Source of the DNA: Microcaldota archaeon
GTDB taxonomy: Archaea > Micrarchaeota > Micrarchaeia > Micrarchaeales > Micrarchaeaceae
DNA: 47,039 nt
Direction of reading: 5' to 3'
Assembly: GCA_021828155.1 (NCBI GenBank)
Contig: JAKAST010000004.1
Location: 1 to 47,039, forward strand
Shown: in pieces, positions 1,049 through 44,690 of the stretch
How the letters are laid out: the number at the start of each line of letters is the position of its first letter
How positions within the stretch are numbered: the stretch's first letter is position 1
Notes under the pieces: model-generated
The model's input: the letters and a program-made list of their open reading frames with translations, nothing else
What the model was told of the DNA's origin: nothing
The model's database searches: none
Translations under genes and position numbers: made by a program

Positions 1049-1075
1049 TCAGCCTCCTCCTCCACTTCCTCCCAT
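1049..1075 (-). CDS. Gly-rich micro-ORF, array member 4 (MGGSGGGG)
   Basis: Eight codons plus TGA encode MGGSGGGG. It has its own copy of the promoter cassette: BRE/TATA-like GAAATATATTTAAAGC, then a block nearly identical to that of member 1 through GGTGAAACAG to the ATG. The spacer from member 3 is 96 bp. The TGA lies 11 bp from the stop codon of the converging Lrp-like gene. Confidence 0.4.
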   Translation of the reverse strand: MGGSGGGG

Positions 1076-1105
1076 CTGTTTCACCAGTTACGCTTGTATG
1101 ATAAG

Positions 1106-1121
1106 CTTTAAATATATTTCT
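1106..1121 (-). promoter_or_regulatory. TATA/BRE-like promoter of micro-ORF member 4
   Basis: On the minus strand the sequence reads GAAATATATTTAAAGC. A purine-rich BRE-like element directly precedes a TTTAAA TATA box. The predicted start, about 25 bp downstream, falls at the GGTGA ribosome binding site. The equivalent box for member 1 lies at about 1343-1355 (GAAACGCGTTTAAAGC). The conserved spacing in both copies supports a real promoter. Confidence 0.5.
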
Positions 1122-1171
1122 AATCCAGCCATTCCCACTTCTGCTGCCCTTATGGTCTCTACTGCAACTAT

Positions 1172-1198
1172 TCAGCTTCCTCCTCCACTTCCACTCAT
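1172..1198 (-). CDS. Gly-rich micro-ORF, array member 3 (MSGSGGGS)
   Basis: Eight codons plus TGA encode MSGSGGGS, in the same frame as the other members. The upstream spacer (39 bp) ends in a GTGGGACA segment, so the ribosome binding site is weaker than the GGTGA of the other three. It is probably co-transcribed with members 1 and 2 if the array is expressed. Confidence 0.33.
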   Translation of the reverse strand: MSGSGGGS

Positions 1199-1237
1199 TG
1201 TCCCACTATTCAGTCTTAATCTATCAGTAGATACAAT

Positions 1238-1264
1238 TCAGCTTCCTCCTCCATTTCCTCCCAT
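1238..1264 (-). CDS. Gly-rich micro-ORF, array member 2 (MGGNGGGS)
   Basis: Eight codons plus TGA encode MGGNGGGS. GGTGA is five bases upstream of the ATG, in the 21-bp spacer after the TGA of member 1. No separate TATA box is visible, so it would be the second cistron of a transcript starting before member 1. Codons differ from the other copies at the fourth residue (Asn) while the Gly/Ser pattern and length are kept. Confidence 0.38.
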   Translation of the reverse strand: MGGNGGGS

Positions 1265-1285
1265 CTATTTCACCACTATGACTAT

Positions 1286-1312
1286 TCAGCCTCCTCCACT
1301 TTGTCCTCCCAT
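1286..1312 (-). CDS. Gly-rich micro-ORF, array member 1 (MGGQSGGG)
   Basis: Eight sense codons plus TGA on the minus strand encode MGGQSGGG. GGTGA sits five bases before the ATG. A TATA-like TTTAAA with an upstream purine-rich BRE-like GAAA lies about 35 bp before the ATG, which would start transcription close to the GGTGA. It is one of four same-length, same-frame micro-ORFs in this interval. Translation is inferred only from these signals. No family is known to me. Confidence 0.4.
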   Translation of the reverse strand: MGGQSGGG

Positions 1313-3080: not shown

Positions 3081-3232
3081 AACACCCAAGAATAGTAAGT
3101 ATGGCTGCAAACCTTAATAAATTGGTTGCGGTGGGCCGCCGAACTACAAGCGGGCAGCACCCGGTGCCAATGCCGCAATACAGCTGCAATCCTTTAATAT
3201 TGTTGCGGCAGATTCTATAGTGCGTGTTGCGC

Positions 3233-4732
3233 ATGGACATGGAGGAGCTTGTAGCGTTCGCAAAAAGGCGGGGCCTGTTCTGGCCCAGCGCCGAAATATA
3301 CGGCGGTGCGGCCGGCACCTACGACTACGGTGACGTTGGCGCACTGCTCAAGCGGAACTGGGAGAACGCATGGCTGGCGTACTTCGTCGACACCAATCCG
3401 GACTATCACCTGATAGAGGGCGCGGGCATACTGCCCGAGGCACCATTGGTATTCTCGGGCCATGCCGCGAAGTTCAATGACATTGTTGTAGAATGCTCAA
3501 AGTGCAATACCTTTTATAGGGCGGACATACTGCTCAGGGACTCCGGCGTGGCTGTGTCGGAAGGTGCGGGCCCGGCAGAGATAGACAAGGCGCTGAAGGA
3601 GCACCAGGTTAAGTGCCCCCACTGCAAGTCGACCGCCTGGATGCCGTCGAAGCCGTTCAACATGATGATGGACGTCGGCCTGGGTCCGGAGCGCTCAATA
3701 AAGGGCTACCTCAGGCCCGAGACTGCTCAATCCGCATACCTAAACTTCTTCAGGGAGTTCAACGTGCTGCGCAAGAGCCTGCCGCTCGGCCTTGCAATAA
3801 TAGGCAGGGCGTTCAGGAACGAGATATCGCCGCGGCAGGGGCTCTACAGGATGCGCGAGCTTGTGCAGGCGGAGCTGCAGATATTCTTCGACCCTGAGAT
3901 CTGGAAGGTGGACTTCAAGGGCATTTCAGGCAGGGAGGTGAGAGTGCGCTTATACGGGAAGACAGCCGACGAAACCATTACGCTCGGGGAGCTTGTCGAG
4001 AGGCATGGCATACCCGAGTTCTACGCCTACCACATGGGCTTGATAGACACGTTCTACAGGGACGTCATAGGCGTGCCCTCGGAAAAGCTGAGGTTCCTTG
4101 AGAAGGGCGGTAACGAGAAGGCGTTCTACAACAAGGTGCACATGGACATAGAGGTGTACGTGGAGAGCTGGGGCGGCTTCAGCGAGGTGGCAGGGCTGCA
4201 CTACAGGGGCGACTACGATCTGACCCAGCATTCGAAGGGCTCAAAGCAGGATCATTCTGTACTCGTGAACGGCAAGAAAGTTATGCCCAACGTGCTGGAG
4301 CTGAGCTTCGGCGTTGACAGGAACGTGTGGATGCTTGTCGACGTGTTCTACGCCAAGACTGATGGCAGGTCCGTGCTGCAGATAAAGCCGTTCCTGGCTC
4401 CGTTCAAGGCTGCAATCTTCTCCCTGCAGAAGGAGCCGGAGCTTGAGAAGGCTGTCGATGGTATATACAAGGAGCTGAGGCCGCATCTGAAGCTGTTCCT
4501 CGACCAGTCGGGCTCCATAGGCAGGAGATATGCTAGGATGGATGAGATAGGGACGCCGTTCTGCATAACTGTAGACTACGACACGGTGAACAAGGATTCG
4601 CCCGACTACGGCACGGTTACCGTGCGCTCCAGGGACGACAGGAAGCAGGTCAGGCTCAAGACCTCAGAGGTTCTAGATTACATAAAGAAAGCAACCTCAT
4701 TTGATCCATACGGCTTCTTCAGCTTCGGCTGA
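3233..4732 (+). CDS. glyS: Glycyl-tRNA synthetase (archaeal/eukaryotic alpha2 type)
   Basis: Class IIa synthetase charging tRNA-Gly. Visible are motif 2 (FRNEISPRQGLYRMRE), motif 3 (SFGVDRNVWMLV) and a likely zinc site made of CSKC and CPHC pairs in the catalytic-domain insertion. The C-terminal anticodon-binding domain ends in a normal fold. About 499 residues is somewhat short for the family. A TATA-like TTTAATAT at 3192-3199 implies a nearly leaderless message, which favours ATG 3233 over the in-frame GTG at 3224. The stop overlaps the next start by one base (TGATG), so ogg is probably translated from the same mRNA. Confidence 0.93.
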   Translation: MDMEELVAFAKRRGLFWPSAEIYGGAAGTYDYGDVGALLKRNWENAWLAYFVDTNPDYHLIEGAGILPEAPLVFSGHAAKFNDIVVECSKCNTFYRADILLRDSGVAVSEGAGPAEIDKALKEHQVKCPHCKSTAWMPSKPFNMMMDVGLGPERSIKGYLRPETAQSAYLNFFREFNVLRKSLPLGLAIIGRAFRNEISPRQGLYRMRELVQAELQIFFDPEIWKVDFKGISGREVRVRLYGKTADETITLGELVERHGIPEFYAYHMGLIDTFYRDVIGVPSEKLRFLEKGGNEKAFYNKVHMDIEVYVESWGGFSEVAGLHYRGDYDLTQHSKGSKQDHSVLVNGKKVMPNVLELSFGVDRNVWMLVDVFYAKTDGRSVLQIKPFLAPFKAAIFSLQKEPELEKAVDGIYKELRPHLKLFLDQSGSIGRRYARMDEIGTPFCITVDYDTVNKDSPDYGTVTVRSRDDRKQVRLKTSEVLDYIKKATSFDPYGFFSFG

Positions 4733-44585: not shown

Positions 44586-44690
44586 TCAGGAGTCGTCGCC
44601 GTCCCCGTCCATGCCGTCGTCATCGTCGTCGTCTATTTCCTCGTCGTCGTCATCGTCGTCTTCGTCCTTATCGTCGTCTATCTTAGCCAT
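44586..44690 (-). CDS. 34-residue Asp-rich microprotein
   Basis: Begins MAKIDDDKDE and then contains two runs of six aspartates; 20 of 34 residues are Asp and three are Glu, against two Lys. GGTGA lies five bases before the ATG, a TATA box (ACTTTTATATG, about 44740-44750) predicts a leader of about 28 bases, and a T-rich terminator follows. The product would be intrinsically disordered and strongly anionic. It might bind cations or basic proteins (ribosomal proteins, Alba), which is inference. No family recognised. Confidence 0.6.
   Translation of the reverse strand: MAKIDDDKDEDDDDDDEEIDDDDDDGMDGDGDDS

Follow-up and report, generated by a model that had tools for sequence, protein, structure and literature searches.

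The four micro-ORFs and the convergent regulator gene

The window analyzed here is a 47,039-nt stretch of contig JAKAST010000004.1 from a Micrarchaeota genome (G000; 590 kb, 85% complete). Between positions 1049 and 1312, its minus strand carries four micro-ORFs of 27 nt each (ATG, seven codons, and TGA), which encode MGGQSGGG (unit 1, 1286–1312), MGGNGGGS (unit 2, 1238–1264), MSGSGGGS (unit 3, 1172–1198), and MGGSGGGG (unit 4, 1049–1075), with start spacings of 48, 66, and 123 bp. A first-pass annotation had reported these Gly-rich frames, and we reproduced their coordinates and spacings exactly. It had also placed GGTGA five bases ahead of three of the start codons, as we found for units 1, 2, and 4 (minus strand, 1318–1322, 1270–1274, and 1081–1085, respectively); the exception is the unit starting at 1198, which has a weak Shine–Dalgarno (SD) sequence, GTGGG, at 1206–1202. 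Elsewhere in the window, no Gly-rich micro-ORF was found on either strand.

Two TTTAAA boxes on the minus strand lie at the position seen throughout the family described below, one at 1344–1349 in the promoter of unit 1, which probably serves units 2 and 3 as well, and the other at 1107–1112 in a separate promoter of unit 4. Units 1 and 4 have a near-identical promoter and leader in common (TTTAAAGCTTAYCATACAAGCGTAAYTGGTGAAACAG), so the earlier statement that the spacers diverge does not hold for all of them. Apart from these units, the leader finds its best match in the same genome at C4:1061, in the start region of an ordinary gene (97 aa), indicating that the array is built like the gene starts of this organism. 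The array RNA is purine-rich and unstructured; a structured RNA or known sRNA was rejected, as folding was no better than in shuffled sequences (z = +1.1) and the array had no Rfam match.

Unit 4 ends 11 bp from the stop codon of a convergent gene on the plus strand (3–1037), the 3′ part (344 codons) of a tandem Lrp/AsnC-type regulator gene whose start is missing at the contig end. In G001, a genome of the same genus, seven units occupy the syntenic place directly downstream of a regulator gene whose full-length product is 78% identical to that of the window. These units encode MGGAGGGG, MGGSGGGS, MSGSGGGG, MGGSGGGG, MGGAGGGS, MGGNGGG, and MSGSGGGS, the last being the unit 3 peptide. They end in TAA or TAG rather than TGA, many of their codons are synonymous, and their spacers differ from those of the window. 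The first-pass annotation had made its interpretation depend on start and stop codons being kept in related genomes, and both are kept, while the type of stop and the third codon positions change. It had also proposed a search for the unit in related genomes; the exact unit pattern, which matches unit 2 as well, gave 11 matches in 148 genomes, every one within such an array, and a reversed control pattern gave none. The common reading frame that it had pointed out is present in the window but is not a conserved trait. Because the G001 spacings (46, 59, 55, 55, 47, and 55 bp) do not keep the units in frame, we regard it as incidental and dropped it as evidence.

The same comparison bears on a plus-strand ORF at 1038–1391 (117 aa, Pro-rich repeats), which begins right after the regulator stop and stays open across the whole array, so that the minus-strand units might be the shadow of a real gene. 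This ORF is not conserved: the G001 array has stop codons in all three antisense frames and unit spacings that are not multiples of three, and the promoter and SD lie on the minus strand. We rejected it as a highly improbable gene.

Two further loci record changes in such cassettes. In a third genome of the genus (G002), the 178-aa neighbor gene of the window is present at a contig end (L012, G002:C13) without array or regulator, indicating that the cassette was gained or lost. In another genus, the middle copy of a three-copy array (L053, G118:C5:40884–41019) has a broken frame, indicating that single array copies can decay. Within the window itself, a glycyl-tRNA synthetase gene (3224–4732) lies ~2 kb from the Gly-peptide array, and such genes flank regulators in a few other genomes (a cluster of four); the proximity is probably a coincidence, because the array of G001 has no such gene beside it. 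A CGT-rich tandem repeat array with periods of 3, 18, 24, and 27 occupies 44592–44678.

Genes of the regulator family span ~450 codons and lie on the strand opposite to the micro-ORFs, tail to tail. Pfam detected an AsnC-type winged helix (PF13404; E = 5e-9, 36.2 bits, cut-off 27), while the RAM model alone scored 15 bits, under its cut-off of 25. When the relative L065 was modeled with AlphaFold2 (pLDDT 87.7), an N-terminal beta domain preceded two consecutive wHTH+RAM units, and neither Pfam scan nor fold revealed a TPR domain. With an AsnC-type wHTH and modeled RAM domains, the adjacent protein belongs to the Lrp/AsnC superfamily, and DNA binding is predicted. The top PDB match in a fold search was the tandem Lrp-like fusion NirDL (4ch7/4czc; TM (target) 0.64), followed by many Lrp/AsnC regulators. 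Taken at face value, the top match would make the protein a siroheme decarboxylase (NirDL)-type enzyme, with the peptides as substrates or cofactor carriers. We consider this very unlikely, given an identity of about 10%, a score of 12.8 bits for the NirDL sequence family (PF22451, NirdL-like_HTH; cut-off 27) where HTH_AsnC-type exceeds its cut-off, the extra N-terminal domain, and the many paralogs per genome.

The regulator family, with several paralogs per genome, was present in 138 genomes of a 295-genome phylum sample (E ≤ 1e-20). It is nearly confined to one order, where most listed genomes of its two families are positive; elsewhere in the class, only two of the genomes listed carry it. 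A contig scan with the single G001 protein gave no matches, whereas an alignment of relatives used as the query did find the family. No relatives occurred in viral contigs or phage records, and a virus or phage origin was rejected.

Linkage of micro-ORFs to regulators across the family

We gathered ~105 distinct regulator-family genes by protein similarity alone, blind to micro-ORFs. Within 1 kb past their stop codons, the opposite strand contained 63 Gly-rich, SD-preceded micro-ORFs; the same strand had one, the 5′ flanks had none, and shuffles predicted 0.05. A composition-blind rule (GGTG, 2–7 nt, ATG, 4–20 codons, and a stop, at most 130 bp from the regulator stop) found an opposite-strand micro-ORF in 50 of 103 regulator genes, and 48% of the encoded residues were Gly. 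The controls gave 1/103 on the same strand, 0/95 in the 5′ flanks (both strands), and on average 2.1 in shuffled sequences. When we instead required 30% Gly within 220 bp of the regulator stop, with no SD needed, 64 of 102 genes had a micro-ORF on the opposite strand; the same strand gave 0/102, the 5′ flanks gave 2/90 and 3/90, and shuffles gave 3.2. The corresponding p-values (Fisher p = 2e-17 for the composition-blind rule and about 4e-26 for the Gly-rich rule) overstate independence because the ~105 genes are related, though most pairs share <40% identity. About a third of the regulators had no detected Gly-rich micro-ORF within 220 bp; some may have been missed for weak SDs.

These controls also address chance. 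In a GGA-rich region, starts and stops might arise by accident within a low-complexity GGA repeat, but this reading is contradicted by the absence of micro-ORFs from control flanks and shuffles and by their retention in relatives with changed stops, which makes an accidental origin extremely improbable.

The anatomy seen in the window recurs across the family. A TTTAAA or TTTATAAA box lies 35–60 nt 5′ of the start codon, both in single units and in the lead unit of arrays, the GGTGA-type SD is general, and the gap between the nearest micro-ORF end and the regulator stop codon is usually 2–60 bp. The five units of G047 form a compact polycistron, and G041 has several units with separate promoters. 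In G032, plus-strand micro-ORFs on C1 encode MGGSQ (277938–277955), MGGAGGH (648554–648577), and MKGGPNGGR (748208–748237). A T-run terminator after the micro-ORFs was not enriched (20 seen, 27.7 expected in shuffles), and this claim was dropped. The array in the window is thus one case of an order-wide pairing of micro-ORFs and regulators in Micrarchaeota. The link to the neighboring regulator gene, found here, was absent from the first-pass annotation, whose suggested family of regulatory octapeptides is supported in the form of a family of 5–20-codon genes beside one regulator family.

The 5′ side of the regulators showed features of its own. There, 53 of 90 regulators (e.g., L024 3238–3570) have a divergent gene that encodes a stand-alone RAM-like protein (~100 aa; weak Pfam AsnC_trans_reg match); it occurred in no other flank position. 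At 23 loci, 5′ mini-proteins of 35–50 aa have a common ending like RPVKVVRISENSWQIVYADE (e.g., L024 3116–3241, L043, and L091). A divergent operon 5′ of the regulators (e.g., L064, L066, L091, L026, and L097) has a conserved promoter (TTTATAAAAGC..CATAATATTAATCAAG), and its leader, aligned across loci, is a candidate structured RNA whose G-rich and C-rich ends (GCCAGGGGGTCGGG .. CCTCCTGGCTTCCCACC) are complementary.

Selection and codon use in the micro-ORFs

The substitution pattern, in which a synonymous excess had been proposed as support for coding, showed that excess: between nearest micro-ORF pairs, 49 of 100 single-change codons were synonymous, compared with a neutral expectation of 28% (0.283; p = 1e-5). 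The stop codon differed in 9 of 50 such pairs. Together with the retained starts and stops and the changing stop type and third positions, this supports the peptide-level constraint that had been considered from the window alone. Alignment of orthologous flanks showed a conserved promoter, SD, and MGG start, variable C-terminal codons (AGGC, SDGQ, AGGH, SGD, and NDGGK), and unrelated sequence past the micro-ORF stop. Peptide similarity tracked regulator similarity (Mantel-type rho 0.34, 0/2000 permutations), a co-divergence that may reflect shared descent alone. Among the 71 nearest peptides, only two pairs were identical, both from regulators at least 88% identical.

Codon choice added a second signal. 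The share of GGA among Gly codons was 69% for micro-ORFs, 28% for the regulators, and 22% for other genes, which indicates that nucleotide-level selection acts on the micro-ORFs as well. An early-codon preference for GGA was rejected as the source of this bias, as GGA made up 3 of 14 Gly codons at positions 2–10 of ordinary genes (few data).

This bias underlies the main rival to a peptide function, namely that the translated RNA matters rather than its product. GGAGGA-rich mini-messages might act on ribosomes, for example, by anti-Shine–Dalgarno pairing, or antisense to the regulator 3′ end, with the ORF retained for ribosome loading. Besides the GGA share, the tail-to-tail placement and the purine-rich, unstructured array RNA would suit such a role. 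It is at odds with the synonymous excess, with longer family members that carry non-Gly residues (MFGPEDEDDHGG.., MPDPKDED.., and MDPGRGSTG), with the 31% of micro-ORF Gly codons that are GGC, GGT, or GGG, and with a peptide that varies by regulator. We consider an RNA- or ribosome-level function unlikely, even as the strongest competitor.

A proposed peptide-ligand switch and its known counterparts

That the micro-ORFs are real, dedicated genes, in all likelihood translated, is well supported by these comparisons. The micro-ORFs, their promoters and ribosome-binding sites, the linkage to regulators, the coding selection, and the peptide/regulator co-divergence are computational observations; from them, we infer that the peptide accumulates and what it controls, and from position and co-divergence, that it binds the regulator. 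Because RAM domains sense small ligands, every regulator is accompanied by a peptide of its own, and the two genes travel together, we propose that the leaderless product of a micro-gene is the private intracellular ligand of the adjacent tandem-Lrp regulator, a proposal to which we give an even chance.

The proposed module would have two parts, a beta domain–(wHTH+RAM)×2 regulator and one or more convergent micro-genes on the opposite strand. Each micro-gene or small cluster, with its own archaeal promoter and ribosome-binding site, would yield a leaderless Gly-rich peptide of 5–20 residues. Made inside the cell, the peptide would bind the RAM (ligand) domains of the neighboring regulator and alter its DNA binding. 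Every regulator would thereby have a feedback or threshold switch of its own. In a bacterial in vitro system, ribosomes could translate ORFs of about 2–8 codons over and over without being released (PMC6495379), and the short ORF length may persist through such translation; extra array copies would increase the peptide dose. Several points count against the ligand proposal. Peptides so rich in Gly are poorly suited to specific binding, no Gly-rich micro-ORF was detected within 220 bp for about a third of the regulators, the GGA share (69% vs. 28%) speaks for nucleotide-level selection too, and one G118 array copy (L053) has a broken frame.

Alternatively, the peptide might be exported, sensed by neighbors or re-imported, and read by the regulator in the manner of Rap-Phr, Alo, or arbitrium. 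A genome has many paralogous cassettes, each pairing a receptor with a separate adjacent peptide gene as in Paenibacillus Alo (PMC7425212), which would fit such an extracellular signal, as would the conserved peptide start with variable C-terminal residues. However, none of the peptides (5–20 aa, hydrophilic, and Gly-rich) has a secretion leader, no conserved exporter was found next to the cassette, and the OppA-type binding protein PF00496 was detected in 0 of 41 relatives, compared with 11 of 14 control genomes. The lack of a leader and of an OppA-type protein leads us to favor an intracellular ligand over a secreted signal, which appears decidedly unlikely; the secreted peptides considered in the first-pass annotation are thus unsupported.

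Genes of 5–9 codons escape standard annotation. A micro-gene family backed by synteny, selection, promoters, and regulator linkage makes its members listable and testable, and provides natural material for studying the lower size limit of a functional gene. We put at about evens the broader picture of order-wide archaeal peptide-receptor switches built on genes of 5–20 codons, often arrayed, with many pairs in each tiny symbiont genome. If it is true, peptide signaling would gain a new class, with genes among the smallest protein-coding ones known. If the peptides are ligands, DPANN archaea would hold a peptide-receptor repertoire of an undescribed kind, bearing on the self-regulation of reduced symbionts and possibly on their dealings with hosts.

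No paper describing such micro-genes was found in the literature searched, whose coverage mostly excludes subscription journals. The regulator resembles Lrp/AsnC (feast/famine) and stand-alone RAM proteins in its wHTH + RAM fold and HTH_AsnC-type Pfam match, but here two wHTH+RAM units and an N-terminal domain form one ~450-aa chain coupled to micropeptide genes. Siroheme decarboxylase NirDL, the top PDB match, has a comparable tandem Lrp-like fold, but its sequence match is under the cut-off, and the protein here is linked to micropeptide genes. Sponge RNAs of the CsrB/RsmZ type carry repeated GGA motifs. The arrays likewise repeat GGA motifs in one transcript, but each repeat is a complete ORF with an SD and changing stops, and the RNA is unstructured and without an Rfam match. 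Like the micro-genes, the microcin C gene mccA (seven codons, MRTGNAN) is a dedicated gene of roughly this size, preceded by a strong Shine–Dalgarno sequence, and seven codons is a length that favors repeated translation (PMC6495379). The likeness is in gene size only, as the micro-genes here are Gly-rich, arrayed, and regulator-linked, and no MccB-like, ThiF/E1-type, or other modifying enzyme was a recurrent neighbor in ~100 cassettes (clusters judged by eye, not all Pfam-scanned).

The closest counterpart in working is the RRNPPA family (Rap-Phr, PlcR-PapR, AimR-AimP arbitrium, and Paenibacillus Alo), although the module is not a member. Both combine a cytosolic regulator with a short adjacent gene, in many paralogous pairs per genome and with a peptide that depends on the receptor (PMC7425212, PMC12700828). 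An adjacent short peptide gene was present here in 64/102 cases, though on the opposite strand. The module differs from RRNPPA in having no OppA-type importer (PF00496 absent in 41 relatives), a tandem Lrp/AsnC receptor without TPR, and archaeal peptide genes of 5–20 codons that are leaderless, convergent on the opposite strand, and often arrayed.
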